This document shows, one piece after another, positions 1-21,968 of a stretch of DNA of 64,000 nucleotides. The position numbers and the translations under genes are program-made. Position 1 is the first letter of the stretch, and every line of letters starts with the position of its first letter. The DNA lies in assembly GCA_021774575.1 (NCBI GenBank), contig JAJFIX010000026.1, forward strand, positions 1 to 64,000, in the 5' to 3' direction. The notes beneath the pieces are model-generated. The model saw nothing but the letters and a program-made list of their open reading frames with translations, had not been told where the DNA came from and searched no databases. The stretch comes from Alphaproteobacteria bacterium (lineage in GTDB: Bacteria; Pseudomonadota; Alphaproteobacteria; UBA6615).

Positions 1-95
1 TCCTTGATTGCCTTGGCTCCACCCGTCTGTCGGGTCTCCGATTTCTGCCTCATCTGCGTTCCCTTCGGTCACTACGATGAGCCAGAAATCCTCTC

Positions 96-632
96 TTATG
101 CAATACCGCTAATCTGTTCCATAGGCGCTGATGGCAAACACTCAATTAGATTTTCATAAATTTCGGGTTCGCCAATCGATTCCTTCGGAATGTCAGGCAG
201 AACAACCTCTTTCGGAGCTCCTTCTTGCAGCTGCTTATATAGCTTCTCCGCCGTCTCCGGCTCATAGACAGAAATCAACGCAAAGTAAGTCCGGATATAT
301 GAAACCCCTTGTGCTTTGTTTTTAGCAAATTTTATTACGCTTATCTGGTAGCCAATTTGGTCACTCGCACCCTGTGGCCATGCCCCGGATTTTGGTTGCG
401 TCGTAATCCCCTTGCGGAACAAGATCAAAAACGACCAAGCGTGCAAATGTATTCCGTCGTAGTCAAGAACGCCGTTACTAATTTTCGTTTTATGCTCGCC
501 CTTAAGTTTTTTCGGTTTGAATTCCTTGGCAAACCGATACACAGCCCTCCGGAATTCATCGATGACCGGCTTAGGTGCCAACAAATAGCATTTGGCAATA
601 TCCTCAATGTACGTAACATGCTCCGGGGTCAT
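96..632 (-). CDS. Hypothetical protein of the accessory island
   Basis: I do not recognise this 178-residue protein. It has no signal peptide or obvious membrane segment and is rich in Lys and Glu. The N-terminal half (about residues 1-75) is basic. It ends in an acidic, proline-containing tail. Its ATG start lies about 60 bases beyond the end of the DGPA-repeat frame, which is on the same strand, so the two could be cotranscribed. It sits in the variable region left of the retron, so an accessory or defence-related role is possible, but the sequence does not show one. Confidence 0.55.
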   Translation of the reverse strand: MTPEHVTYIEDIAKCYLLAPKPVIDEFRRAVYRFAKEFKPKKLKGEHKTKISNGVLDYDGIHLHAWSFLILFRKGITTQPKSGAWPQGASDQIGYQISVIKFAKNKAQGVSYIRTYFALISVYEPETAEKLYKQLQEGAPKEVVLPDIPKESIGEPEIYENLIECLPSAPMEQISGIA

Positions 633-690
633 GCACCTGCTCCAGCTAGTAGTTAGAGCTATGCTAGACCGACTTCAAAGCTAAGCAAGA

Positions 691-1110
691 CTATCCAGGA
701 TTATTCACGGGATTGTGAGCGGCGGGGTCAACCTTGACACCTTTTTCGAAATACTCGACTTTCACTGTCGCTCCGGTAATTTGATCACGCTCGAGTACTG
801 CTGGACCATCCGATACGGGCCTATGGATTTTGTTGAATTGGGCCCACCTCTCCGAAGTCATGATGCCTGTATCTTCATCTCGACTGATTTCGACCGGTCC
901 ATCCAGTCTGTGCGCGCCGTGCTGCGGGTGCGTCCAACTCTCGTGATTTGCGATGCCTGTTGTATGGTTTCGAAGGATGAAGCTCGGTCCATCGGTGCGG
1001 GGCGGGACCCATTCCTCGAAGCATACAATGCCGGTCTCGGCGTCAACTTCTCGGACCGCCGGGCCGTCGGTCCGACACTTCTGGCCATCAATCCAGTATT
1101 CTTCTGACGA
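691..1110 (-). pseudogene. DGPA-repeat protein fragment without its own start
   Basis: This frame is open for 139 codons on the minus strand and ends at a TAG at 691-693. It encodes four copies of a repeat of about 30 residues with the pattern R-x-DGPA, then RD-x2-TG, then an E-x-W/Y step. Visible cores are TDGPAV, TDGPSF, LDGPVE and SDGPAV, each followed by a TG. No good start codon exists: a TAG lies immediately upstream at 1111-1113 and the first ATG is internal. It overlaps the end of the TIR-like frame by 23 bases in another frame. The simplest reading is the C-terminal part of a broken gene. Its function is not known to me. Confidence 0.6.
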
Positions 1111-1333
1111 CTACATGACACCGGCTAATTTTTTGGTTGATGGCTTCTCTTAGCGCTTTCGCCGTCGACGCGTTATGAATTGGGTCGTTACGCGGGACGG
1201 AATAGTCTCGGAAATCCAGTGATGCCTGCCCCACGGACCAACTTTCATTGAAAACCCAACTAGCAAGTGTTTCGTAGTGACCAGAATAAGTCCATGAGTG
1301 GCTAATGAAGACATGGATCTGATGTGTGCTCAT
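1088..1333 (-). pseudogene. TIR-like (Thoeris ThsB / DUF1863-type) N-terminal fragment
   Basis: The 81 residues start with an ATG and read HVFISHSW at about residues 7-14. Next come a DFRDYSVP segment, then DPIHNA, and a CHVVV strand at about 70-75. This is the order in ThsB-type TIR domains (DUF1863), which in Thoeris defence make a cyclic ADP-ribose signal from NAD after phage infection. The frame leaves the family pattern right after CHVVV and stops 5 codons later. Intact family members are about twice as long, so this is a truncation. The DGPA-repeat frame begins at the same point in another frame. No ThsA-like partner is visible in the window. Confidence 0.65.
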
Positions 1334-1645
1334 TGCGGCTTACCCTCTAGGTCAACAGATTACCAAAGAACAATTTCCTGGAAATTGGTTAGCAGCGGAG
1401 TTTCAGAATTGGAACGCCCACGCGGAGCAATTTTAACATGATTAAGATAACGCTACTTGTCATTATTTTTTGAATTTTGTAACTGTCGGCGGTTCCGCCT
1501 CGGAGCACTTAGTCGTGAAAATGCTCCCGAGGCGCGTCGGTGTGGGCTGGAAATTTGGACCCTCCATCAATTAAGGGTGGCACAAGCGTAAAATAAATCG
1601 TTCAAAGTCCTTGACGGCTGCTATGGAGATATTCGATCCTGTCCA
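1334..1645. other. Intergenic stretch upstream of the retron RNA, with one palindrome
   Basis: No coding frame is supported here. The stretch is AT-rich. It contains an inverted repeat with arms at 1496-1507 and 1522-1534 (CGCCTCGG-AGCA against its complement with one bulged base) around a 14-base loop. No T-tract follows on either strand, so it is not a standard terminator. The retron promoter should lie in this stretch, but I cannot point to a convincing -35/-10 pair. Confidence 0.4.
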
Positions 1646-1801
1646 AACCTTTACGCGATTGGACTATCCAATGTCGGGCGCTTCGCCAGACTGATACTAT
1701 TGACGACTTTTATCGGCGCGAGTGAGGCCTTTTTATCACCTCCACTAGCTCGCTCCGGTAATAAAAAGGCCTCACTCGCGCCTTGCTCTTAGGTAAAGGT
1801 T
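1646..1801 (+). ncRNA. Retron msr-msd RNA
   Basis: The segment has every expected part of a retron template RNA. The a1 arm at 1646-1654 (AACCTTTAC) is perfectly complementary to the a2 arm at 1793-1801 (GTAAAGGTT). After a1 comes a G-rich step (candidate branch guanosine G1655 or G1657). Two short stem-loops follow: ATTGGA-CTA-TCCAAT, then GTC-g-GGCG-CTT-CGCC-a-GAC. The msd part holds a long hairpin with 26-base arms at 1715-1740 and 1757-1782, one mismatch and a 16-base loop. The a2 arm ends 7 bases before the effector start. By family knowledge the RT reverse-transcribes the msd to branched or processed msDNA. The order RNA, effector, RT matches retron Eco1 (Ec86). Confidence 0.85.
1715..1782 (+). 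repeat. msd hairpin: 26-bp inverted repeat
   Basis: Left arm 1715-1740 and right arm 1757-1782 are complementary over 26 positions, with a single C/T difference, around a 16-base loop at 1741-1756. This is far longer than a terminator stem. Its place between the msr stem-loops and the a2 arm identifies it as the stem of the reverse-transcribed msDNA. Confidence 0.85.
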
Positions 1802-1808
1802 ACTCGAT

Positions 1809-2771
1809 ATGACGAACCCACACATTGACGCTTTCTTGCAGAGCGTCAATGTGTCGGGCTTGCGAATTGTCGCCCCGACTGATCGAATTTTTTTCTGTGG
1901 CGGTCCATACGAAGCTAATTCTAATACACCGTGTTTTTCAGCTCGAGATTTTATTCTTCGTCGTACCTTGGTTAATGAGGCTAGTCTCTTCAAAAGGTTT
2001 CACTATGAAGAGCAAATGCGGGAGTGGTTGAATGGTGGCCATTTTGCGGATTTGCATAATCTTGAAAAGCACATTGCAGAAATCTCGTCAGTCGTTTTTC
2101 TGATCGCTGAGAGCCCAGGCTCCTACGCTGAACTAGGTTCATTCGCTAGCTCCAAGACAATTGTAGACAAGATGTTTGTCGTTACTAATACCGCGATTGA
2201 CGATGAAAAATCATACATTTCTCTCGGGCCGCTATCGTTTTTACGGAATGTTGATCCTGAGAAAGTACGCACCTACCCATGGGGAAGTGCATTCAAATCT
2301 GGCAATTCACCGACTGTTGATACAGATGACTTGGATGGGATCGCCGACGATATTATCGCCAAACTCCTTGAATTCGAAAAACAGAACGCCTCAGAGCAGA
2401 AGCTAGAGCCGGAATTTGATGGTCATATTAGCCTGTTGATAATTGATCTCATTCGACTTTATGGCGCTTGTATGACTCGCGAAATTACGACGGGGTTGTC
2501 GACCCTAATCGATGTGGGCGGCCAAAGCACCGTTAGGAAGCACCTCTTCCTCTTGGAAAAACTCGGATTAATAAGGCAACACAAGCACGGCGGAACCTAC
2601 TATGTAGCTACATCGCCAATTGATCACATCACATATGATTTCATCGAGGGCACCAGCCGGGATATAGCTGACCGTGTTAGGCTGACAATGGATGTGCGCA
2701 GTTGGTTCAAAGACAATGACAAGCACCGTTTCAATGTAATCCGGAGACACGGGGTGGGCAGCAATGAGTAA
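1809..2771 (+). CDS. Retron type II-A effector: nucleoside deoxyribosyltransferase-like with winged helix
   Basis: The 320-residue protein has an N-terminal NDT/TIR-like Rossmann domain (about 1-190). It carries the family signature ESPGS at 101-105 followed by YAELG; E108 is the expected catalytic glutamate. The C-terminal part (about 205-300) looks like a winged helix-turn-helix. This architecture and length match the retron-Eco1 and Sen2 effectors. For Eco1 the effector is reported to degrade NAD when the RT-msDNA complex no longer restrains it during phage infection. The gene lies between the msr-msd RNA and the RT, and its end overlaps the RT start by 8 bases. The function here is inferred from family and context. 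Confidence 0.85.
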   Translation: MTNPHIDAFLQSVNVSGLRIVAPTDRIFFCGGPYEANSNTPCFSARDFILRRTLVNEASLFKRFHYEEQMREWLNGGHFADLHNLEKHIAEISSVVFLIAESPGSYAELGSFASSKTIVDKMFVVTNTAIDDEKSYISLGPLSFLRNVDPEKVRTYPWGSAFKSGNSPTVDTDDLDGIADDIIAKLLEFEKQNASEQKLEPEFDGHISLLIIDLIRLYGACMTREITTGLSTLIDVGGQSTVRKHLFLLEKLGLIRQHKHGGTYYVATSPIDHITYDFIEGTSRDIADRVRLTMDVRSWFKDNDKHRFNVIRRHGVGSNE

Positions 2772-3714
2772 GCTCATTCTAGAAATTTCCGAAAATTTTG
2801 GTCTTTCAATGCGCGATGTCTCCCAAATTATTCGGTCTGCACCTCATCGATACAAAGTTTTCAAAATAAAAAAGCGTAGCTCTGAGGAGCGACGCACTAT
2901 CGCTCAGCCGGCGCGTGAGGTGAAGGAACTTCAACGATGGTTAGTTCGCACAGTTCTGCAGTCGCTACCAATTCATGATGCAGCGACCGCATATATTGCC
3001 GGCAGAGGCATTCATCTGAATGCACAAAGACACGTAAACAGCCGTTTCCTTCTTAAAATGGACTTCGAAAGTTATTTCCCTTCAATCAAATTGGCAGATG
3101 TTCAGGCACATTTAACGAAATATCTTGGTGAGCGATATGAAGAGGACGATATCCTTGCAATTTGCAATCTCATTTTGTGGAAGCCCAAGACTTCCAGTGA
3201 GCTGGAGTTGTGCATTGGCGGTCCCAGTTCCCCATTGATCTCGAACTCAATTGCTTTGGAATTTGACGAACTTGTTGCCGCTCATTGCGAAGATAAAGGA
3301 GTTGCATACACTCGCTATGCAGATGACCTGGCATTCTCGACAAGTGAGCGCAATATTCTGAGGGGGATTGAAAAATTTATCGAGGACGCCTGTGGGACCG
3401 TTAAATACCCATCGCTTCGGGTTAATAAAGACAAGACCGTTCATGTTTCGAAAAAACATAGACGCTTAGTCACGGGCGTAACCCTTTCGGCGCAGGGAGA
3501 GTGTTCATTGGGGCGGGAAAGAAAACGCTCAATCAGAGCTGGACTTCATCGTGCTCTGAAGAATGAACTCTCCGATGATGATATGTCGCAACTCCGTGGG
3601 TATCTAGCCTTTGCAAATGACATTGAACCGGGTTTTCTTGATTCGATGAAACGAAAATATGGAGATGATTTGATACGCCGTGTGCTCCGATGGCAGCCGG
3701 AATTACCAAACTGA
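2764..3714 (+). CDS. Retron reverse transcriptase
   Basis: The 316-residue RT has the catalytic YADD box at 185-188, the RT2-type KMDFESYFPS at 98-107 and GGPSSP at 152-157. It also has both motifs that separate retron RTs from group II intron RTs: NAxxH (NAQRH, 86-90) and VTG (236-238). There is no maturase or endonuclease domain, as expected for a retron. The enzyme should prime on the 2'-OH of a guanosine in the msr RNA and copy the msd. The ATG overlaps the effector stop region by 8 bases, so the two are translationally coupled. No catalytic residue looks missing, so the system is probably functional. Confidence 0.92.
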   Translation: MSKLILEISENFGLSMRDVSQIIRSAPHRYKVFKIKKRSSEERRTIAQPAREVKELQRWLVRTVLQSLPIHDAATAYIAGRGIHLNAQRHVNSRFLLKMDFESYFPSIKLADVQAHLTKYLGERYEEDDILAICNLILWKPKTSSELELCIGGPSSPLISNSIALEFDELVAAHCEDKGVAYTRYADDLAFSTSERNILRGIEKFIEDACGTVKYPSLRVNKDKTVHVSKKHRRLVTGVTLSAQGECSLGRERKRSIRAGLHRALKNELSDDDMSQLRGYLAFANDIEPGFLDSMKRKYGDDLIRRVLRWQPELPN

Positions 3715-3771
3715 GGTGCCTTAGATTAGTAGACGCTTTGCCAGGTACTGCTGGAACCAAAGGGTATTAGT

Positions 3772-3927
3772 ATGTCAGGTCAAATTCGGTTCACAGACGA
3801 GTTCAAGAAGGACGCGGTGGCGCAAATTGTTGATCGTGGCTATTCGGTCAATGATATTGGTCAACATGATAGAGGTTCCTGCGCCGAATCAATTTGGCAA
3901 ACAGTTTTTCAAAGCAATTTCCAGTAG
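3772..3927 (+). pseudogene. IS3-family OrfA (transposase) N-terminal remnant
   Basis: An ATG at 3772 opens 51 codons that start MSGQIRFTDEFKKDAVAQIV and run through RGYSVNDIG. This is the start of the helix-turn-helix of IS3-family OrfA proteins, normally about 90-100 residues. The similarity is lost after about 32 residues. No OrfB or DDE domain and no inverted terminal repeats are visible. It is a decayed insertion-sequence end at the right side of the retron. Confidence 0.65.
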
Positions 3928-4032
3928 AAACAATTACCCTTCAGCTCCCCCGCTCGCTCCCCTACCTCTATTCGAAGCCGGGGGAAAATCCAGAGAATTC
4001 CATACAATTAGTTGATTTTAAATGGTGAATTC

Positions 4033-4101
4033 TGGTGCAGTCGGGTGGAATTGAACCACCGGTCCCACCCTTACCAAGGGCGTGCTCTAGCTCTGAGCTA
4101 T
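4033..4101 (-). pseudogene. Broken tRNA-Thr(GGT)-like sequence
   Basis: Read on the minus strand this has a tRNA-like D-arm start, an anticodon stem-loop CCCTT-GGT-AAGGG, a good T-arm (GGTGG/CCACC with TTCAATT) and an acceptor 3' strand ending in encoded CCA (4033-4035). The 5' acceptor strand does not pair with the 3' strand, and the D-loop is short. Its 5' end runs straight into the 3' CCA of the tRNA-Arg. I judge it non-functional, the 3' portion of a tRNA-Thr that lost its 5' end. Confidence 0.6.
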
Positions 4102-4103
4102 GT

Positions 4104-4180
4104 TGGTGCGCCCGGCAGGAATTGAACCTGCGGCCCCCGGTTTAGGAAACCGGTGCTCTATCCAGCTGAGCTACGGGCGC
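4104..4180 (-). tRNA. tRNA-Arg(CCT)
   Basis: A full cloverleaf is visible on the minus strand. The acceptor strands GCGCCCG and CGGGCGC pair, and the D-arm GCTC/GAGC is intact. The anticodon arm CCGGT-TTCCTAA-ACCGG carries anticodon CCT, and the T-arm is intact. Discriminator A and an encoded CCA occupy 4104-4107. It sits between the truncated tRNA-Thr and the 5' half of another tRNA-Arg(CCT). Confidence 0.93.
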
Positions 4181-4411
4181 ACAATACGAGCCTATACCAG
4201 AAATTACCTGGGTCACGAAGAAACCTGTGACTGCCGGTGCTTGGGCTGGGGGCGTCCGAGTTTGGCCCGATCGTGTTGCAATAACACAATCGGCTTCTAA
4301 GCAGACTTAAATCCAGTCGTTATCGGTTGACTTTGCACGGTTCGGAAAACGGTTTTTAACCTTGCAGTGGACTGTTAACCAGTTGTTTGAAAACTAAAAA
4401 TTTAATCTAAA

Positions 4412-4458
4412 GCAACAGATTAGGAATCTGGTGCTCTATCCGACTGAGCTACGGGCGC
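4412..4458 (-). pseudogene. 5' half of a second tRNA-Arg(CCT)
   Basis: The minus strand reads GCGCCCGTAGCTC, then a D-arm and a complete anticodon arm CAGAT-TCCTAA-ATCTG with anticodon CCT, and then turns into unrelated AT-rich DNA at the variable loop. The T-arm and acceptor 3' strand are missing. The anticodon stem differs from the intact copy at 4104-4180 but is still base-paired. It is therefore a remnant of a once functional, separate tRNA-Arg gene and not a recent duplicate. Confidence 0.75.
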
Positions 4459-4535
4459 GCACTATTCTGGATAGCAGATTGAGCGTGCGGTAGGCAATCG
4501 GGCGCTGGGGACATCGGACGTCAGTCGATAGAAAT

Positions 4536-5333
4536 TTAATCGAAGGCAAAACTATCCATTGCCAGCACGCCGTAGTCATAGCTCGCGTGGATCAACCGAC
4601 CTGGGCGGTCGGGGGTGCCGGCGCCAAGGGCCAGAAAAAAGGGCATTAAATGTTCCTCTTCGGGGTGGTTGCGTTCGGCGTGGGGGGCGCGGTTTCGATA
4701 GTCGAGCAGATCCGAAATCCGATTTTCTGTAACTGCGGTGGCAATCCAATCGCGGAATTCGACCACCCAATTGGGGGTATCTGCACCTGGATCGAAACCT
4801 GCGGCGCGCAATTCGCCTAGGTTATGATTGATATTGCCGCTTGTCATGATCAGTACGCCTTGGGCTTTTAAGGGGGCCAAGGCCCGGCCCATTTCGTAAA
4901 ATTGCTGTGGCGTGCCGCCGGTCTGCAGGCTGAGCTGACAGGTGGGGATATCGGCCTCGGGGAAAGCCAGGGCCAATGGCACCCAGACGCCGTGATCCAG
5001 GCCGCGCTCGACCGTGGCAATAGGTCCAAGACCGGCATCCGCTAAGAGTGACTTTGCTTGTTCGGCAATATTGGTTGCGCCGGGCGCCGGATACACGATT
5101 TCGTAGAGGGCGTCTGGAAATCCATAAAAATCGTGAATTGTACCAGGATTAGCAGAGACGTCGATGGTTGGGTCGTCCGTCTCCCAATGGGCCGAAATCC
5201 CCAGCACGGCTTTGGGGCGCGGGATGATCTCGGCGAGATCGCGCATAAAGTTGCGGGCCGGAACATCACGCAAAATCAGGTCCGGTGATCCGTGTGAAAT
5301 AAAAAGCGCCGATGGTGTGGTCGATCCGGTCAA
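4536..5333 (-). CDS. DODA/LigB-type extradiol ring-cleavage dioxygenase
   Basis: The protein belongs to the class III extradiol dioxygenase family (DODA, YgiD-like), which uses a single non-haem metal to open dihydroxylated aromatic rings; YgiD of E. coli acts on DOPA. Conserved blocks visible in order are FISHGSP (metal His), SAHWE (metal His), DHGVWVPL (His near the active site) and a GNINHNL stretch, with HASYDYG near the end. I chose the TTG at 5333, just past the stop of the upstream gene. It gives 265 residues, the family's normal size, whereas the ATG at 5408 would overlap the neighbour by 68 bases. The physiological substrate is unknown. Confidence 0.8.
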   Translation of the reverse strand: MTGSTTPSALFISHGSPDLILRDVPARNFMRDLAEIIPRPKAVLGISAHWETDDPTIDVSANPGTIHDFYGFPDALYEIVYPAPGATNIAEQAKSLLADAGLGPIATVERGLDHGVWVPLALAFPEADIPTCQLSLQTGGTPQQFYEMGRALAPLKAQGVLIMTSGNINHNLGELRAAGFDPGADTPNWVVEFRDWIATAVTENRISDLLDYRNRAPHAERNHPEEEHLMPFFLALGAGTPDRPGRLIHASYDYGVLAMDSFAFD

Positions 5334-5340
5334 AGGGGGC

Positions 5341-8013
5341 TCATTCTGTTGGTTGCGCGGTCTTGCCTGCCGGTAACACGTAGCGCTGGTAAAGCCAACC
5401 CAAGCCAAGCAGAGCGAAGCCTAGCCCCAAAAATGACGCGACACGCATGAGGCCGTCAAGCTCGGTCATGTCGATCAAGAAAACCTTCAACACGGTCGCC
5501 AGCATGAACACCAGCGACCCATAGCGCGGGCCCGAGCGATTTTGCCACAATCCGATACCCAGCAACACCAGTGCGGAAATCAACATGACGGCAGAGTATG
5601 TATAAAGCTCTGCACCGGGCAGGCCGGGGCCCGACAGGATGGGGCCTTGGTGGAATCGGCGAACTTCGAGCATTAGATAAACGAACAGAAATACCAGCCC
5701 ACCAATATCAAAGACCTGGCCCCGCCTTTTACGGCCTTGAGTTCGCCAAACATGGGCAAAGAAAAAGGCAAATCCCGCAGGCACGCCATAGGCAAGAAAC
5801 AGCAAATTAAACAGTGGCACGTTGCCAACGGCCACATTTGTCCATAGTGGGTTATCGAATAGCAGCGGCCCCCCGATTGCCTGTCCGGCGGCCAGGCCGA
5901 TCAATATGCGCCAGGCCCAGCTTGGAACCGGTAGCCGGTCGCGATTAATCGCCCATAATAGGGCTGCCATAAAAGCCCAGGCCGCTTGTTGTAGGCTCTG
6001 TTCGGCAAACCCATAACTTGGCTCGTCGATCCGGCCGACCATGGCGATCCTGATCAATAGGCTCACCATAATGACGCCGAAGGCGATACCGCCGGCCTCA
6101 AAGATCGATCGGATCCATTGATCGGCGCCGACCGGACCGATTCTTATTTTCGACCAGGTTCCGATATCGGAAAATAGGCGCCGGGCGAGCAAAAAGGCGA
6201 TGGCGGGCAGCCCGTACCCATAAATAACCCAGGGCATGCCGAGATCGCCGGCAAGCTGATAATCAAGGATATAGATATTGGGGATCAGCCGGATTAACAC
6301 GATCAAGCCAACGCCGGCGGCGATCGGAGCCAGCGCCTTTATCTGGCGCCGTTCGGCGATCCAGGCAAGTACGGGCAACTGAGCCGAAAGGGCAACGGTG
6401 AGCCAGGCCTGGTTGAGGGTCATTGTTAGGGCGAGGCTGATCGCGGTGATTGAGGCTGCCGCAAAGACACCGATGACGAAATCGGCTTGATGGTTGGGCC
6501 GGTTGCGGTCGAGGATATGGGTCGCAATAATGCCGATCAGGGCAAGTAGTACCGAGACCGGTGTCCACATAAAAGCGGTCTCGAAGGCGGTCAATCGCCA
6601 ATAGGCGAGGATCAGAAAAAACACCGGACCCCCGGCCGACAAAATGGCCCAAATGCCGGGATGGCGGCTCCGTCGTAGGGCCCAAAAGCCCGCCAGCCCG
6701 AAAAAGGCGCCAAAGGATAGCGCCCATCCCAAAAATGGCGCAAGGGCCGCCGGGATCGTTTCCCCGGGAATCCATATCGCCTGCATGGGTTGTTCCCACG
6801 CGCCAAGAGTGCCCGCCGCGCCAAATAGCCCAAGGAGAGCCAAACCGTCAAATTTTTCATTTTCGAATTTGCTATAGGCGACAAACCAGATGACCAGCGC
6901 AGCCAACAGGCACATGGGGCCAAGCGTCCAGTCGCCCAGCGTAACCAATCGAACCATAAGAATTGTCGAGGCCAGGGCCGCTGTCCAGGAAATGACGCTC
7001 GCCATGTTGGCGAGCGTTAGCCATTTTGCCGCCTGCCCATTATTGTCGGTGGTCGCGGGGCTTCGCACGGTCTGGAATAAGACGGTGGTGGCAATCAGGA
7101 ACAAGCCCAGCGGCACCGTGCCCTGATCTAGCGCGACAGAGGCTGGCTCGATTATGCGTTCGGCAGATAGCCAAAGAAACGCCCATCCGAGAGAACCGGC
7201 AAGGGCCGACCAGGAGAGCCACCAAGCAGCAACATAGCGCACAAGAAAGACGCTGGCAGCCGTCAACGCAAAGAGGTAGGGGAACAAGGCCCAAGGCTCA
7301 TTCGTCGCGACGGTCGCAACCAGCACCGGCGTGGCAAAGCCACCAACCAGCCCGAGCGCTGCGACAAACGGGCCTTGCAACAGGGCAAGAGCGACCGCGC
7401 CAAAGGCAATGGCGGCAAGCAGAGCAAAGGCGACGGGCATGCTGATCAGGTCATAAAGCGCGTAACCGGCATAGGCCGAGGCGAAAAAAGCAACGACGCT
7501 TGCCGCTGCCAAAGCTTGGGGGACATAGTTTGCTGCTGGCCCAAACCGATTTGCAGTTGCCTCATTGCGTCGAACCCACTCGCCCAAAACGAGCAAAATA
7601 CTCGCCAGTCCGAAACCCGCGCCGATCCGCAATTCGGGTCTAAAAGAGAATGTTTCGACCGCATAAATAACCAAAAATACGGCGCCCAACGCCAGCGCCA
7701 ACCCGCCGGTCCAGACCATCCATTTGGAAGTCAGGTCTCGTTCGAAATTAAATGTTTTTCGTGGTTTAGCTTGCCGTGGCACGGCCCGTCGGACAGGCCG
7801 CTGTATTTTACTGGGTGGACTTTGCGCGACCATCGGCGCGCGAATTTCAGTGGCGGTATCTGGGGCCCGCACCCCATGAACCGTCTGTTCAAGAGCCGCA
7901 ATTTTACGTTTCAACTTGGCAATTTGGACGATTGCCGCGATGCCTAATCCTGCGCCGATCAACACGTAACCGACAATCGATAGGGCCAAAATTACCCAAC
8001 CGGTTTCGAACAT
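5341..8013 (-). CDS. DUF2339 polytopic membrane protein
   Basis: The 890-residue protein starts with one membrane helix and a short coiled segment (about 30-45). A basic proline-rich linker of about 50 residues follows, and then a dense series of more than 20 hydrophobic helices to the C-terminus. This layout matches DUF2339 inner-membrane proteins, whose function is unknown; a cell-envelope role is often assumed. The start is supported by a strong ribosome binding site (GGAGG) 9-10 bases upstream. The dioxygenase gene follows on the same strand and probably shares the transcript. Confidence 0.85.
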   Translation of the reverse strand: MFETGWVILALSIVGYVLIGAGLGIAAIVQIAKLKRKIAALEQTVHGVRAPDTATEIRAPMVAQSPPSKIQRPVRRAVPRQAKPRKTFNFERDLTSKWMVWTGGLALALGAVFLVIYAVETFSFRPELRIGAGFGLASILLVLGEWVRRNEATANRFGPAANYVPQALAAASVVAFFASAYAGYALYDLISMPVAFALLAAIAFGAVALALLQGPFVAALGLVGGFATPVLVATVATNEPWALFPYLFALTAASVFLVRYVAAWWLSWSALAGSLGWAFLWLSAERIIEPASVALDQGTVPLGLFLIATTVLFQTVRSPATTDNNGQAAKWLTLANMASVISWTAALASTILMVRLVTLGDWTLGPMCLLAALVIWFVAYSKFENEKFDGLALLGLFGAAGTLGAWEQPMQAIWIPGETIPAALAPFLGWALSFGAFFGLAGFWALRRSRHPGIWAILSAGGPVFFLILAYWRLTAFETAFMWTPVSVLLALIGIIATHILDRNRPNHQADFVIGVFAAASITAISLALTMTLNQAWLTVALSAQLPVLAWIAERRQIKALAPIAAGVGLIVLIRLIPNIYILDYQLAGDLGMPWVIYGYGLPAIAFLLARRLFSDIGTWSKIRIGPVGADQWIRSIFEAGGIAFGVIMVSLLIRIAMVGRIDEPSYGFAEQSLQQAAWAFMAALLWAINRDRLPVPSWAWRILIGLAAGQAIGGPLLFDNPLWTNVAVGNVPLFNLLFLAYGVPAGFAFFFAHVWRTQGRKRRGQVFDIGGLVFLFVYLMLEVRRFHQGPILSGPGLPGAELYTYSAVMLISALVLLGIGLWQNRSGPRYGSLVFMLATVLKVFLIDMTELDGLMRVASFLGLGFALLGLGWLYQRYVLPAGKTAQPTE

Positions 8014-8101
8014 CGCCTAGCCCTCCTTTACGTTAGCTGTGGCAAGCATTTGCGGTCGGTGGCAAACTGTTCAGGATCCTAAAAATATATGAGATTTACC
8101 C

Positions 8102-8524
8102 TCAGATATCGTCCTTTATTCGTGCGATTTCGACGCCGACTCCGGCACAGTTCTCATAAACATCGAGTTTCTGTATTGAGGCGCGCACCCCCAATATCTC
8201 ATCAAATTCAAGACACGCATCGGCTATTTTTTCGATCAACGTTTCTTGTAAATTAGTATGACTCTGCGTCGATAGCTTGGTGACGGTACGGCGGATCACG
8301 TCATAGTCAAATACGGTTTCCAACTTGTCGCTAATTTCCCCGTCGGCGACACGAACATAAAGCGATAGATTGATGGCAACGCGCTGAGGCCCGTTGAGCT
8401 CGCTTTCGTGCACGCCAATGGGAATATTGAGCATCAAGTCGCGAAAAAAAATGCGCCGTATACGATTGCCGTCGGCAATCAATTTGGCCTCGAGGGCGTC
8501 GATGGGTGGGCGCGGGCCGGTCAT
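8102..8524 (-). CDS. folB: Dihydroneopterin aldolase family protein
   Basis: FolB converts dihydroneopterin to 6-hydroxymethyl-dihydropterin and glycolaldehyde in folate synthesis. The protein has the family's FFRDLMLNIPIGVHESE strand near residues 25-40, a central FDYDVIR segment, the LIEKIAD helix with the usual Glu, and a KLDVYENCAGVGVEI end. I chose the ATG at 8524, which overlaps the stop of the upstream reductase gene as ATGA and gives 140 residues. A longer upstream extension would lie inside the neighbour. The pairing with a FolM-like reductase supports a pterin role. Confidence 0.85.
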   Translation of the reverse strand: MTGPRPPIDALEAKLIADGNRIRRIFFRDLMLNIPIGVHESELNGPQRVAINLSLYVRVADGEISDKLETVFDYDVIRRTVTKLSTQSHTNLQETLIEKIADACLEFDEILGVRASIQKLDVYENCAGVGVEIARIKDDI

Positions 8525-9318
8525 GGGTTCTCTTTCGTCGTAAAAGCGATATCGCGACGGCTGGGTAAAAGATGCTGACCTGCATCGACGACAATTGTTT
8601 GGCCGGTAATCGAGGGCGCCGTGGCGCCATAACATACCGTCGCTGCAATGTCGTCTAGTGTCGTCGACCGACCAAGCGGCAATCGGGTTCGCGCCTTTTC
8701 AAAGGCGGCGTCCTTGAGATCGTCGCTCGGCAAGGTGAGGCCGGGGGCGATCCCAATGACCCTGATCGAGGGGGCCAAGGCCAATGCCATTGTCTGTGTT
8801 AGTCCCTCCAACGCGTATTTGGAAATAGTGTAGGAAAGATAGTCCGGGTCGGGGTTTCCAAGTTTCTGGTCGAGAATATTGATAATGACCGGCAGTCGCG
8901 CCGCCGGGTTTGCTGCGGCTGTATATTTGGCGAAGGCCTGCATCATCAGGGCCGGGGCGCGGGCATTGATCGCAAAATGGCGGTCAAAATTTTCCGCCTC
9001 CAGATCAGCAATACAATCATATTCAAAGAGCGACGCATTATTTACTAGGCAACCGAGAACGCCGCCTTTTTCAACGATCACTTTGACCGCTTCGGGCACC
9101 AACGCGCGCGCCTGGGCCGGGTCTTGAAGGTCGGCCTGTATCACGAATGCTTGGCCTCCCGCCTGCTCGATCAGGGCTGCGGTCTCCTTGGCCGCATCGC
9201 CGGACCGGTGATAATGGACAGCAACGATACGCCCTTCGCGACCAAGCGCTTGGGCAATTGCGCGGCCGATGCGGCCAGCGGCACCTGTTACCAACGCGGC
9301 GGGCAGCGCGTCGGTCAT
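8521..9318 (-). CDS. SDR-family pteridine reductase-like protein (FolM type)
   Basis: This is a 265-residue short-chain dehydrogenase. It has the NADP-binding TGAAGRIG at 11-18, NNAS at 93-96 and the catalytic Y163-x3-K167. The NNASLFE stretch and the LGNPDPDYLSYTISKYALEG region resemble pteridine and dihydromonapterin reductases (FolM, PTR1), which reduce dihydrofolate or pterins. Location next to folB, with an ATGA overlap at both ends (pip upstream, folB downstream), supports that. Substrate specificity cannot be read from the sequence. Confidence 0.78.
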   Translation of the reverse strand: MTDALPAALVTGAAGRIGRAIAQALGREGRIVAVHYHRSGDAAKETAALIEQAGGQAFVIQADLQDPAQARALVPEAVKVIVEKGGVLGCLVNNASLFEYDCIADLEAENFDRHFAINARAPALMMQAFAKYTAAANPAARLPVIINILDQKLGNPDPDYLSYTISKYALEGLTQTMALALAPSIRVIGIAPGLTLPSDDLKDAAFEKARTRLPLGRSTTLDDIAATVCYGATAPSITGQTIVVDAGQHLLPSRRDIAFTTKENP

Positions 9319-10280
9319 GTGTTGGCGATATCGCGAAAGGCGTCCATTGCCGCGACCAGGGCGGCGCGGGTTCCCGGCTCGAACGCCGAATGGCCCGCAT
9401 CATCGATGACTTCATAGCGCGCCTCGGGCCAGACCGTGGCTAAATCGTGGGAAGTGGTAATCGGACAGACAATATCGTAACGCCCCTGGACGATGACACC
9501 GGGTATATTTCGAATATTGGCGATATTGTCGAGCAGGCTATCGGCGTCAAAGAATATATTGTTGATCATATAATGGGCTTCAATGCGTGCCACGCCGAGG
9601 GCTGTCGTGGGTTTGGCAAAGGAGGAAACCAGCGCTTTGTTGGGCAATAAGGTTGAACAGCGACCTTCATAGGTGCTCCAGGCGGTCGCCGCCTTCATAT
9701 GAATTTCCGGGTCGGGATTTGTCAGCCGTTGATGGTAAGCGATCAGCAAGTCGTCGCGCTCGTCTAAAGGTATATGCCCGGCAAAATCGGCCCAGGCCTG
9801 GGGGAAGATCGTCTTAATGCCATAAAGGAACCAGTTGATTTCCGCCTGTCGGCACAAAAAAATGCCCCGCAGCACCAGACTAAGACAGGCAATCGGGTGC
9901 GTTTGGGAATAAGCCAGGGCCAATGTGCTGCCCCAAGACCCACCAAACACATGCCATTTCTCGATGCCGAGATGGGTGCGAAGCTGTTCCAAATCGGCAA
10001 TCAAATGGGGGGTTGTGTTGTCGGTTAAGTCCCCGTGTGGTGTTGATTGCCCGGCGCCGCGCTGATCGTAAAGAATGATCCGATAGTGATCGGGGTCGAA
10101 AAACCGGCGATAGGCGGATACGGTCCCGGCCCCGGGCCCGCCATGCAAAAAGACCACGGGCACCCCGTCGCGCCGACCCGATTGCTCGTAATACATGGAG
10201 TGACGCCCGTCGAGATCAATCCGGCCAATATCATAGGGCCGGATTTGGGGATAGAGTTCGCGCGCAACCTTACTGTCCAT
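9315..10280 (-). CDS. pip: Proline iminopeptidase (S33)
   Basis: Pip is an alpha/beta hydrolase that removes N-terminal proline from peptides. HGGPG at 46-50 forms the oxyanion hole, DQRGAGQS at about 72-79 is a family signature, and GGSWGS at 113-118 carries the nucleophile Ser115. DAGHSAFEPG near the end carries the catalytic His. I chose the ATG at 10280, which gives 321 residues, the normal length. A longer frame reaching 10385 would overlap the start of the divergent nuclease gene. It heads the pip, reductase, folB transcript. Confidence 0.92.
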   Translation of the reverse strand: MDSKVARELYPQIRPYDIGRIDLDGRHSMYYEQSGRRDGVPVVFLHGGPGAGTVSAYRRFFDPDHYRIILYDQRGAGQSTPHGDLTDNTTPHLIADLEQLRTHLGIEKWHVFGGSWGSTLALAYSQTHPIACLSLVLRGIFLCRQAEINWFLYGIKTIFPQAWADFAGHIPLDERDDLLIAYHQRLTNPDPEIHMKAATAWSTYEGRCSTLLPNKALVSSFAKPTTALGVARIEAHYMINNIFFDADSLLDNIANIRNIPGVIVQGRYDIVCPITTSHDLATVWPEARYEVIDDAGHSAFEPGTRAALVAAMDAFRDIANT

Positions 10281-10384
10281 ATTTTGTCGACCCTTGCTGG
10301 TTTTCGCCGCCACTCTAACCGAAACGATGGTTAACAGCACGACCCCTATCTTGGTAAAATTGGTCTGACAGGGTAGGTTGCGCA

Positions 10385-11179
10385 ATGAGATTTTTCCCTT
10401 TGGTACTTATCTTGGTGGTTGTTTGTGGCGTCGGCGCGCGGGCCCAGTCACCGGTAGTAGATATGGAGGTGGGGGAAACGAGCCGTGTCGTCGACGTTAT
10501 CGATGGTGACACGGTTATCTTGGAAAGTGGGACGGAAGTCCGACTGGTCGGCATCCAGGCGCCAAAACTGCCGCTGGGGCGGCGCAATTTTCGCCCCTGG
10601 CCCTTGGCCGATGAAGCAAAAGCAGCCCTTGAAAATCTGGTGCTTGGGCAGGCCGTGACCTTGTATTTTGGCGGCCGCCGAACGGACAGATACGGACGAG
10701 CCTTGGCGCACCTGGTGCGTGAAGATGGCGAATGGGTCCAATCTCAAATGCTGGAACTCGGTCTGGCGCGGGTCTATAGCTTTGCTGATAATCGTTCCCT
10801 AATTACCGATATGCTCCACATTGAGGCGGCCGCGCGCCAAACCGCCCGCGCGATGTGGTCCTTGCCCAATTATCAAGAGCTGGACCAAGCCGATGCGGCG
10901 CGGGGTGAAGGCGGCTATGCGCTGGTCGTCGGCCGCGTCTTGAACGTGGCGGAAGTTCGCGGTCGCGGCTTCCTAAATTTTGGCGAGGATTACCGGACCG
11001 ATTTTACAATCTCAATTGATCCAGCGGATTTAAGGACGTTTTTCGAGAAAGAAGACGTGGTTTTGGAGAGCTTTAGTGGCGCCCGCGTGCGGGTGCGTGG
11101 TTGGGTTGAGGATTTCAACGGACCAATGATCCAGGTCACTCATCCCGAACAAATAGAGGTTTTGACGCCGGCCAATTGA
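10385..11179 (+). CDS. Secreted thermonuclease-like (SNase) protein
   Basis: The 264-residue protein has a signal peptide (about 1-21, ending ARA). An SNase-like OB-fold domain follows at about 30-155 with VIDGDTV (Ca/active-site Asp), VRLVGIQAPK (catalytic Arg) and DRYGRALAH. The C-terminal 90 residues look like a second small beta domain. Family members hydrolyse nucleic acids or have lost activity; the Asp and Arg positions seem present here. It is transcribed alone, divergently from pip. Confidence 0.8.
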   Translation: MRFFPLVLILVVVCGVGARAQSPVVDMEVGETSRVVDVIDGDTVILESGTEVRLVGIQAPKLPLGRRNFRPWPLADEAKAALENLVLGQAVTLYFGGRRTDRYGRALAHLVREDGEWVQSQMLELGLARVYSFADNRSLITDMLHIEAAARQTARAMWSLPNYQELDQADAARGEGGYALVVGRVLNVAEVRGRGFLNFGEDYRTDFTISIDPADLRTFFEKEDVVLESFSGARVRVRGWVEDFNGPMIQVTHPEQIEVLTPAN

Positions 11180-11185
11180 CCTTTG

Positions 11186-12115
11186 CTAGATGTCCATTTC
11201 CGGTTGCCAGATCGCGGTGCCGACACCCGATTCCGTGAACGGCTCCAACAGCAAAGAATTGCGGGCACGGCCATCGAGAATGACGGCGGCTTCAACGCCG
11301 TTTTCGACGGCGGCAATGCATGTTTCGATTTTCGGGATCATGCCGCCGGTTATTGTCCCATCAGCGATCAATTCATGGGCTTGGCCTGCGGCGATATCGG
11401 CGATCAGCTTTCCGTCCTTGTCCAGCACCCCGGAGACATCGGTGAGCATCAATAGCCGGGCGGCCTTCACCGCAACTGCAATGGCGCCCGAAACCGTGTC
11501 GGCGTTGATGTTATAGGTCTCGCCGCCCGGACCAAGGCCAATGGGGGCGATCACCGGAATGATGTCGCTGTCGATCAGATTGTGCAAAATATGGGCGTCG
11601 ATTTCTTCGGGCTCGCCGACAAAACCCAAATCGAGAATTTTTTCGATATTGCTTTCCGGGTCGCGCTTGGTGCGACGAACCCGCTGAGCGCGGATCATAT
11701 TGCCGTCCTTGCCCGAAAGGCCGACCGCCATTGCGCCAGCCCGCGAAATTGCCGCGACAATAGATTTATTTATCGAGCCACAGAGAACCATTTCAACAAT
11801 ATCGACCACCGATTTATCGGTGACCCGTAACCCGTCGATAAACTCGCTTTTGATGCTAAGCCGATCAAGCATGGCGCCAATCTGGGGCCCCCCACCGTGG
11901 ACAACGATTGGATTGATGCCGATTTGCTTCAGCAGCACGATATCGTGGGCAAATGACTGGGCCAAGGCTGCATCGCCCATCGCATGGCCGCCATATTTTA
12001 TGACAAAAGTCTGGCCGGAAAACCGCCGCATATAGGGCAATGCTTCGGCAAGCACGGCGGCTTTATCCTGGGCAGCCAAATTGTCGACAACGGCACGGAT
12101 ATGGTCGTCATTCAT
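11186..12115 (-). CDS. argB: Acetylglutamate kinase
   Basis: ArgB phosphorylates N-acetylglutamate in arginine synthesis. The 309-residue protein has the amino-acid-kinase motifs: IKYGGHAM at about 39-46, [10 protein letters not shown] at 71-80, a GLSGKDGN stretch, [12 protein letters not shown] and the LTDVSGVLD strand, with GGMIPK near the C-terminus. All are intact. It follows engB on the same strand in the common alphaproteobacterial order. The gap to the upstream gene is about 50 bases. Confidence 0.95.
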
Positions 12116-20969: not shown

Positions 20970-21968
20970 ATGAATGGAACCGGTGCTCGCAATTTGATCA
21001 CGGACGTGCCTGGCATTTGCGTTGGCAATGCCGAGGACGAAGTGGTTCGCTCCGGCGTTACTGTTGTCTTGCCCGACCGGCCAACGGTCGCGGCGGTGTA
21101 TAGTCGCGGCGGTGGACCCGGAACCCGCGAAACCGACGCGTTGAGGCCGGGAAACGCGGTTACGAAAATTCATGCCATTGTGCTTTCCGGCGGATCGGCC
21201 TTTGGCCTCGATGCGGCGTCGGGGGTGATGGCTTGGCTCGCCGGCAAAGGGCGGGGGTTTCCCATCGCCGACCAGGTCGTGCCGATCGTTCCGGCGGCTA
21301 TTTTATTCGATCTGGCGAATGGTGGCGACAAGAGCTGGGCCGCCGATACCGGCGCGCCGACACCCTATCGGGGGCTTGGGATCGACGCGGTTTCGACCGC
21401 CGGTGAGGCCTTTTCCCTGGGTAACGTCGGGGCCGGATACGGCGCCAAGGCGGGGGCGCTCAAAGGCGGACTTGGCAGCGCGTCGACGATAATTGAAGGC
21501 GGTGTCACTGTTGGCGCCCTGGCGGCGGTAAATGCGTTTGGATCAGCCGTGATGCCTGGCGTACGGACATTTTGGTCGTGGCCCTTTGAGCGTGCAGGCG
21601 AACTGGGTAACCAGAAACCACCGGACTATGATGATCCAGCCGACCTTGACTATGATTTTGACCTAAGCGCGGGCGAAAATACGACCCTGGCCGTGGTCGC
21701 GACCGATGCGGCGCTGACCCGCGAACAGGCACAAAGGGTTGCGATTATGGCCCAGGATGGCCTCGCCCGGGCGCTTCGCCCCGTGCACACGCCGTTTGAC
21801 GGTGACACCGTATTCGTTTTGGCGACGGGTCGGAATTCGGCCCCTGTCGGGCTCGATCAAATGGCGCGGATTGGCACGGCGGCAGCCGATTGTTTGGCTC
21901 GCTCGGTGGCGCGGGGCGTTTATGAGGCGCGAAGCGCGTGGGGCATTCCCGGATACGAAACCCTTTAA
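20970..21968 (+). CDS. P1-family (DmpA/NylC-like) N-terminal nucleophile peptidase
   Basis: This is a 332-residue member of the DmpA/NylC family (S58/P1), self-cleaving aminopeptidases or amidases that act on N-terminal D- or beta-amino acids or 6-aminohexanoate oligomers. Visible signatures are LITDVPGI near the N-terminus, LSGGSAFGLDAASGV, VGAGYGAKAG, and the ENTTLAVVATD stretch at about 230-241. The last corresponds to the autoprocessing site with a Thr nucleophile. It lies 31 bases after fnr. A peptide ABC importer follows on the same strand, so the peptidase may act on imported oligopeptides. Confidence 0.85.
   Translation: MNGTGARNLITDVPGICVGNAEDEVVRSGVTVVLPDRPTVAAVYSRGGGPGTRETDALRPGNAVTKIHAIVLSGGSAFGLDAASGVMAWLAGKGRGFPIADQVVPIVPAAILFDLANGGDKSWAADTGAPTPYRGLGIDAVSTAGEAFSLGNVGAGYGAKAGALKGGLGSASTIIEGGVTVGALAAVNAFGSAVMPGVRTFWSWPFERAGELGNQKPPDYDDPADLDYDFDLSAGENTTLAVVATDAALTREQAQRVAIMAQDGLARALRPVHTPFDGDTVFVLATGRNSAPVGLDQMARIGTAAADCLARSVARGVYEARSAWGIPGYETL

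Follow-up and report, generated by a model that had tools for sequence, protein, structure and literature searches.

The border of the genomic island at positions 4033-4458 of the window (the whole stretch of DNA that was analysed, 64,000 nt from an Alphaproteobacteria bacterium of the GTDB lineage UBA6615) is very likely the left attachment junction (attL) of an integrative element that uses a tRNA-Arg(CCT) gene as its attachment site and replaces the gene that it destroys; we put the probability of this reading at about 0.85. Three tRNA pieces are present in this interval. Judged from the sequences, they appear to record the replacement of one tRNA-Arg(CCT) gene by another, an arrangement that recurs in other genomes and that could be followed to both of its ends in relatives. 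The features of the border, named according to this reading, are as follows:

8102..8635, minus strand: a gene that we take to be folB-like, in the chromosomal flank; neighbour of tRNA-Arg(CCT) in relatives (blastp synteny)
5408-4536, minus strand: LigB-family gene, upstream of the 5' half in minus-strand order
4415..4458, minus strand: tRNA-Arg(CCT) 5' half, nt 1-44 of the resident gene, with the break just 3' of the anticodon loop; chromosomal side of attL (nhmmer, BLAST, folB-side position)
4181..4414, minus strand: left end of the element, separating the broken resident gene from the carried one (no tRNA similarity; layout as in the left ends of relatives)
4337..4356, minus strand: putative integrase arm-site pair, AAAACCGT at 4356-4349 and CGAACCGT at 4344-4337, spacing 12 bp
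4354-4337, minus strand: 18-mer AACCGTTTTCCGAACCGT, overlapping the putative arm-site pair
4104..4180, minus strand: complete tRNA-Arg(CCT), carried by the element (ARAGORN; Rfam 72 bits, model 1-71 of 71)
4033..4100, minus strand: tRNA-Thr(GGT) remnant, nt 8-75, without the 5' acceptor strand (Rfam 39.2 bits, model 8-63)
3772..3924, plus strand: short ORF, presumably resembling the start of an IS3-type transposase OrfA (reading frame only)
2764..3714, plus strand: retron reverse transcriptase, island cargo (PF00078, E 2e-15; PADLOC RT_II-A, E 2.7e-117)
1809..2771, plus strand: retron type II-A partner protein, NDT-like (PADLOC NDT_II-A, E 3.3e-60)
1088..1333, minus strand: ThsB-type TIR-like fragment, 81 aa (PF08937, E 3.5e-4, at the cut-off)

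The earlier note on this DNA had described an intact tRNA-Arg(CCT) lying between a tRNA-Thr without its 5' end and a tRNA-Arg without its 3' half, and all three were found as described. The intact gene was called by ARAGORN and covers the full Rfam model; the Thr piece can be aligned gap-free with the host gene from nt 8 to nt 75; the Arg half matches positions 1-44 of the model (nhmmer, E 8e-11), and a BLAST search of the whole genome gave 98% identity over 47 nt at 4416-4462 (E 9e-17). The CCA of the intact gene had been said to join the Thr piece directly. The join is nearly direct, with three bases (ACA) preceding nt 8 of the Thr piece. The 234 bp separating the 5' half from the complete gene are without tRNA similarity. 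The view that the two tRNA-Arg pieces are not one duplicated gene was borne out, since their anticodon stems are unlike (CCAGA in the 5' half, CCGGT/ACCGG in the complete gene) and they are therefore not copies of one gene. The complete gene pairs fully with itself (5/5 in the anticodon stem, 7/7 in the acceptor stem), and the resident 5' half combined with the carried 3' half forms merely 3 of 5 anticodon-stem pairs.

On the island side of the border the G+C content is 46-49% (positions 1-4000), compared to 53-58% across 4001-12000. The retron that had been noticed next to the border was recognized by PADLOC, and its adjacent reverse transcriptase and NDT-like partner genes make it a type II-A retron; no Rfam match to a retron RNA reached the gathering score in the window. 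No phage structural genes were seen within the 4 kb of island that the window contains. Base 1 of the window is the end of contig C19, and therefore the far end of the island and its integrase lie off the contig. ARAGORN also called a tRNA-Gly(TCC) at 21225-21305 without Rfam support; this call is probably spurious, as an ordinary tRNA-Gly(TCC) is present on contig C17.

A search of the source genome with Rfam gave 44 tRNA matches, which were typed by ARAGORN on fetched stretches. The remaining tRNA-Arg genes carry the anticodons CCG, TCT, and ACG, so that the gene at 4104-4180 is the sole CCT gene found; a second one could in principle be missing, given that the genome is 96.9% complete. The list of tRNA-Arg(CCT) and tRNA-Thr(GGT) genes elsewhere in the genome, which the earlier note had proposed as a check, contains no further CCT gene and an intact tRNA-Thr(GGT) on contig C43. 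Comparison with relatives by blastp showed that tRNA-Arg(CCT) adjoins a folB - SDR - peptidase - nuclease neighbourhood in 7 of the 17 loci examined. The counterpart of this neighbourhood in the window lies at 8102-11179, and it is the 5' half that lies on this side. The 5' half at 4415-4458 thus places the attachment site inside a host tRNA gene at the syntenic locus, and its stem type, CCAGA, is that of the genes of G007 and G013, which are intact at this locus. The complete gene of the window is nearest to those of G003, G010, and G005 from the same family (91-94%); this, together with its unlike, self-paired stem, indicates that it came from elsewhere. The element in the window therefore carries a complete tRNA of the same isotype as the gene it broke, and with the same anticodon, CCT. 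The CCT tRNA may be non-essential, because tRNA-Arg(TCT) can read AGG by wobble.

A whole-genome search did not find the 3' half of the resident gene. When the integrase loci of the genome were checked for it, the pieces found there were of tRNA-Met-type (CAT) and tRNA-Lys(CTT). None of the genome's own fetched integrases is clearly related to the integrase family of locus L235 described below, and the AAA-ATPase that follows the tRNA in G007, sought in the source genome as a marker of the other flank, was represented merely by a 45% paralogue. Two relatives showed further arrangements. In G007 (L115:9421-10602) one small ORF at the same locus is flanked by two intact tRNA-Arg(CCT) genes at a distance of 1.1 kb, an arrangement that the split-and-replace plan does not explain. 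G008 has two tRNA-Arg(CCT) 3' halves with similar upstream flanks (L131:5014-5059 and L132:4008-4054), one of which adjoins the same AAA-ATPase that G007 has after its intact tRNA; a complete CCT gene was not seen among the G008 matches.

The left end of the window element shares the 18-mer AACCGTTTTCCGAACCGT with the left end of an element in G230. A scan of 84,980 genomes found 32 loci with this 18-mer, 23 of which have tRNA-Arg pieces at a distance of 600 bp or less and 9 of which have none. Chance origin of the matches was rejected, as about 7 were expected in 257 billion bases by our own arithmetic vs 32 found, and tRNA-Arg pieces accompany 23 of the 32; the 9 loci without a piece look like chance background. 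The shared plan consists of a 5' half that ends at the anticodon loop, a pair of CGAACCGT sites, and a complete tRNA-Arg with the anticodon CCT or TCT. Both the 5' half and the complete gene are visible in 19 of the 23 loci; the other four show two 5' halves (L219), a half in which the locus begins (L222), a complete gene only (L218), or a 3' half only (L221). The hosts, as labelled, are nearly all Alphaproteobacteria, Rhodobacteraceae foremost, and include Aquicoccus, Rhodovulum, Sulfitobacter, Primorskyibacter, Sedimentitalea, and Allgaiera. The host of L211 is labelled Thioalkalivibrio, which is not an alphaproteobacterium, and L226 is labelled Alphaproteobacteria and is without a tRNA piece. 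L233 is apparently the same contig as G230:C162 and hence not independent. The 18-mer had no match in viral contigs.

A total of 26 left ends including that of the window were tested, and both pieces were available in 24 (L219 and L222 were dropped because one piece was missing or cut). The anticodons of the broken and the carried gene are identical in 22/24 loci, and in the remaining two the resident loop is decayed. The start-to-start distance of the two genes is exactly 136 nt in 11/24 loci and 278 nt in the window, where the left end is longer than in the Rhodobacteraceae set and the match of the arm pair is looser. A loose arm-site pair arose in 52 of 2000 shuffles of the window segment, so that the pair alone is modest evidence; the weight falls on the exact match of the 18-mer and on the layout. 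Four of the six delimited elements (L234, L235, L236, and L246) have two CGAACCGT-type sites at the left end and three at the right end, and in the window the left pair alone is visible, in a weaker form. We regard these sites as putative integrase arm sites, whose layout of two at the left and three at the right is what would be expected of such sites. They are absent from the element of G368 and from the second element of L237 (G419); not every element that splits and replaces a tRNA gene carries them.

Right ends were sought in 17 genomes reached via the 18-mer loci. In all, eight resident genes (G368, G414, G412, G423, G417, G419, and G138 A and B) were traced to both ends; they were split by six elements of 6-15 kb and by a nested pair. 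Among the 18-mer loci, L234, L235, L236, L237, and L246 yielded a 3' half, and L245 a degenerate one. The half-to-half lengths are 5,971 bp in L234, 14,355 bp in L235, 6,288 bp in L236, 15,268 bp in the second element of L237, 13,723 bp in L246, and 9,474 bp in G368 (L180). The 3' half of the broken gene of G368 lies 9.4 kb off, the two junctions have only ATTCCTAAT in common, and a tyrosine-recombinase gene of 408 aa lies directly within the right end. The two G138 cases are nested in one contig stretch and have one carried gene in common: an outer element of about 55 kb splits one resident, an inner element of about 38 kb splits the second, and one complete gene remains. Integrase genes adjoin both left junctions of G138. 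L235, L236, and L246 each encode, directly within the right end, an integrase of about 410 aa with Arm-DNA-bind_3 and Phage_integrase domains, of which L234 has a fragment. The integrases of G138 show about 33% identity to the L235 type. No relative of the L235 integrase was found in viral contigs, nor in phages at E 1e-20; a search against plasmids gave one relative (31%, Bradyrhizobium).

When the resident halves were rejoined, the anticodon stem paired at 5/5 positions in five residents, at 4/5 in two, and at 2/5 in one (L234/G414, which is decayed). The rejoined acceptor stem paired at 7/7 in seven residents by script, and at 7/7 by eye in the eighth (L236/G423, which has lost its CCA). 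The carried genes of the traced cases pair with themselves at 5/5 in the anticodon stem and 7/7 in the acceptor stem, and combination of a resident 5' half with a carried 3' half gave 2-4 of 5 anticodon-stem pairs, always worse. Full self-pairing and worse mixed pairing mark the carried gene as a complete gene in its own right and not as a hybrid. The cores shared by the junctions, as read by eye, are 8-15 bp long and centred on the anticodon loop. With so short a core in common, the tRNA is rebuilt at neither junction: this holds for 8/8 of the relatives' residents with both ends, and the window attL is not rebuilt either.

These results bear on the possibility that the window island is of the conventional kind, in which the 3' part of the tRNA gene in attP restored the target at one junction and a later deletion or second insertion broke it. 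We consider this unlikely, even though restored-type islands do occur in the source genome: at C31:175491-195544 (L263, L255) such an island lies between a complete tRNA-Met-type (CAT) gene and a 3' copy that matches it exactly over 49 nt about 20 kb off, with an integrase adjoining. In the 8 delimited cases, neither junction was rebuilt and the complete gene differs in sequence and has paired stems of its own; moreover, 20 or more independent loci are broken at the same spot, the anticodon loop. Restoration of the target from an attP fragment is not seen in the window, where the mixed stem pairs at 3/5. As the whole story, the conventional restored island is ruled out in relatives by the stem-pairing test. 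The source genome may contain another split tRNA gene at C43:89359-89398 (L254:3360-3399), where a tRNA-Lys(CTT) 5' half ends at the anticodon loop; integrase matches follow after 0.8 and 5 kb, and complete tRNA-Lys(CTT) genes after 45 and 49 kb.

The tRNA-Thr piece is identical to nt 8-75 of the host tRNA-Thr(GGT) at 60 of 68 positions. Two of its changes compensate each other in the T stem, which suggests that it stems from a working foreign gene and not from the decayed host gene, and its start at nt 8 does not match the usual displaced tRNA end. We lean slightly towards the view that it is a second tRNA carried by the element, now decayed, that has lost its first 7 nt. An Rfam scan of 18 other loci found no tRNA fragment directly 3' of the carried tRNA-Arg in any of them. 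The island of L229 (Primorskyibacter flagellatus) carries an intact tRNA-Thr(GGT) about 0.7 kb from the carried tRNA-Arg, and Sinorhizobium meliloti islands are reported, in the text available of PMC11476347, to carry tRNA-Thr(GGU) genes. These two occurrences, and the succession of Arg and Thr with 3 nt between them, would also suit a phage or element tRNA array, of which the Arg and the broken Thr are cargo and whose nearness to the broken resident gene is a by-product of integration. Such an array would account for the Thr piece and leave the identical anticodons of carried and broken genes in 22/24 loci unexplained, and a tolerant pattern for the Arg-Thr junction gave no match in viral contigs and no phage; we hold this explanation to be quite improbable. 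Least probable of all is a duplication of tandem Arg paralogues of which the outer one became a pseudogene, for although G007 has its two intact copies 1.1 kb apart and G034 an intact and a mutated copy 0.8 kb apart, decay would not always end at the anticodon loop, set the two gene starts 136 nt apart in 11/24 loci, or put the missing 3' half 6-15 kb off with matching stems, and simple tandem duplication is ruled out by the unlike anticodon stems and the displaced 3' halves in relatives.

The replacement of a split tRNA-Arg by a carried one seems to have occurred more than once at some loci. When 386 genomes of the class were surveyed for a 5'-half pattern, 326 had matches; among the survey matches listed, at least 22 genomes have two or more matches, and 17 of them were re-searched. 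Two copies 136-196 bp apart were found in 5/17 (G151, G201, G230, G368, and G372). The upstream copy is broken at the anticodon loop in all five, the second copy is also broken in G201, and the resident anticodon loop itself is mutated in G372. G348 has two halves followed by one complete gene, spanning 36 kb. In Allgaiera indica (L237, L219) the tRNA of one element was split by a second element, which has its own complete tRNA near its right end, and an extra broken half is also present in Primorskyibacter (L238), Sulfitobacter (L212), and L236. Of the repeated recombination that the earlier note had proposed, the part that holds is therefore the recurrence in relatives, where two or three broken 5' halves stand in tandem at one locus and are read as successive replacement. 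Integration at tRNA genes, which it had also proposed, is strongly supported, and nothing at the locus shows the excision that was suggested with it. Close relatives with the same three pieces and no island would have spoken against the proposal, and the three pieces are found in 0/60 relatives. G011, from the same family, has the two Arg pieces, namely a half that ends at the anticodon loop and, at 136 nt, a complete tRNA-Arg(CCT) of another sequence, with other island-like genes beyond them. Split-and-replace is thus a better reading of the border than generic traces of integration and excision. Separately, tRNA-Arg(TCT) 3' halves that start at or near the anticodon loop were observed in G010, G016, and G008 (L134:8668-8716, L135:2675-2720, and L133:8061-8111, respectively), that of G008 coming after the end of an integrase gene.

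The cargo of the related elements varies. Restriction-modification genes lie beside the carried tRNA in L235, L236, and L211, L235 also has a primase-like protein, and G011 has, by a weak match, a PD-T7-3-like protein there (E 1e-4). The second element of L237 encodes a portal protein (PHROGs, E 4e-98), the only one among 10 proteins searched, which indicates that some members are prophage-like. In Epibacterium ulvae (L223:7439-7523) a C4 antisense RNA (Rfam RF01695) was observed a few kb past the carried tRNA.

Tycheposons of Prochlorococcus, which are mentioned in PMC10872708, resemble the tRNA-Arg elements in that they form islands at tRNA genes and have a tyrosine recombinase and cargo. 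They are not known to replace a destroyed tRNA with a complete carried gene. A close parallel is the tRNA-dependent lysogeny of mycobacteriophages such as Fionnbharth, in which the core is short, the tRNA is not rebuilt, and a tRNA of the same isotype is carried (Guerrero-Bustamante and Hatfull, 2024; PMC10865867). Relatives of the window element that were followed to both ends share with these phages an attB in a tRNA gene and a short core (about 10 bp in the phages) that does not rebuild the tRNA; several of them also share an arm-binding tyrosine integrase (here by its domains) and flanking arm-type sites, which are putative here. The mycobacteriophage system concerns Actinobacteria phages and tRNA-Lys(TTT) among others and is backed by experiments in the account available, whereas the present elements belong to Alphaproteobacteria, use tRNA-Arg(CCT) or tRNA-Arg(TCT), and are known from sequence alone. 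Unlike the mycobacteriophages, most of the delimited elements had no phage structural gene among the proteins searched, several have restriction-modification genes and the window has a retron, the carried tRNA adjoins the junction, often at 136 nt, and the 5' halves form ladders. The accessible Discussion of PMC10865867 asks how prevalent such lysogeny is beyond actinobacteriophages and names the Lactobacillus prophage Lj965.

Within the Alphaproteobacteria, tRNA-Leu(UAG) of S. meliloti was replaced via a prophage, a phenomenon that the available text calls still poorly described (PMC11476347). There too, a host tRNA is inactivated by integration and replaced by an element-carried isoacceptor resembling those of other alphaproteobacteria; the tRNA is a different one, the sequences are phage-related, and the same text describes no family with conserved ends (PMC11476347). 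The phiLM21-like prophages are stated, in the portion available of PMC12429752, not to show the tRNA replacement feature. Conventional tRNA islands resemble the present elements as tyrosine-integrase islands at tRNA genes with the anticodon region as a common crossover site, but in the available description they are defined by target restoration from an attP tRNA fragment (Islander, PMC4383910), which is absent here. No account of a tRNA-Arg family with these features was found in the literature searched, which took in few subscription papers. While the principle is not new, what does appear to be new is its occurrence in these hosts and at this tRNA, in elements with a constant left end, ladders, and defence cargo.

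We propose that a tyrosine integrase recombines the short core of the element with the anticodon loop of the resident tRNA-Arg gene, and that the junction in the window would have been made in this way. The two halves of the resident gene, 5' and 3', would end up at opposite ends of the element, and the complete tRNA with the same anticodon just inside the left end would become the tRNA of the cell; the carried gene is presumably expressed and needed. The next element would hit the newly installed gene, which would produce a ladder of broken 5' halves. For the window island, the resident tRNA-Arg(CCT) 3' half is expected past the contig end, beginning with TTCCTAATCTGG. A wider and more tentative proposal, to which we give somewhat less than even odds, is that a widespread family of alphaproteobacterial islands spreads by capturing the tRNA-Arg slot: the resident gene (CCT or TCT) is destroyed and the element's own is installed, imprecise loss would cost the cell this tRNA, and the resulting toxin-free addiction would hold defence cargo (retrons, restriction-modification) in place. 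Repeated horizontal replacement of a chromosomal tRNA would be a further consequence.

If our reading is correct, tRNA-dependent integration would be common among islands of the Alphaproteobacteria, including named, culturable Rhodobacteraceae, and not peculiar to mycobacteriophages, which would give a concrete answer to the question raised in PMC10865867 on its spread outside actinobacteriophages. It would also account for orphan tRNA 5' halves that are miscalled by annotation tools. The full elements, with their ends, core, putative arm sites, integrase, and carried tRNA, make the model testable experimentally. A chromosomal tRNA gene would be replaceable again and again through horizontal transfer, and this would suggest a toxin-free route to an island that is hard to lose.
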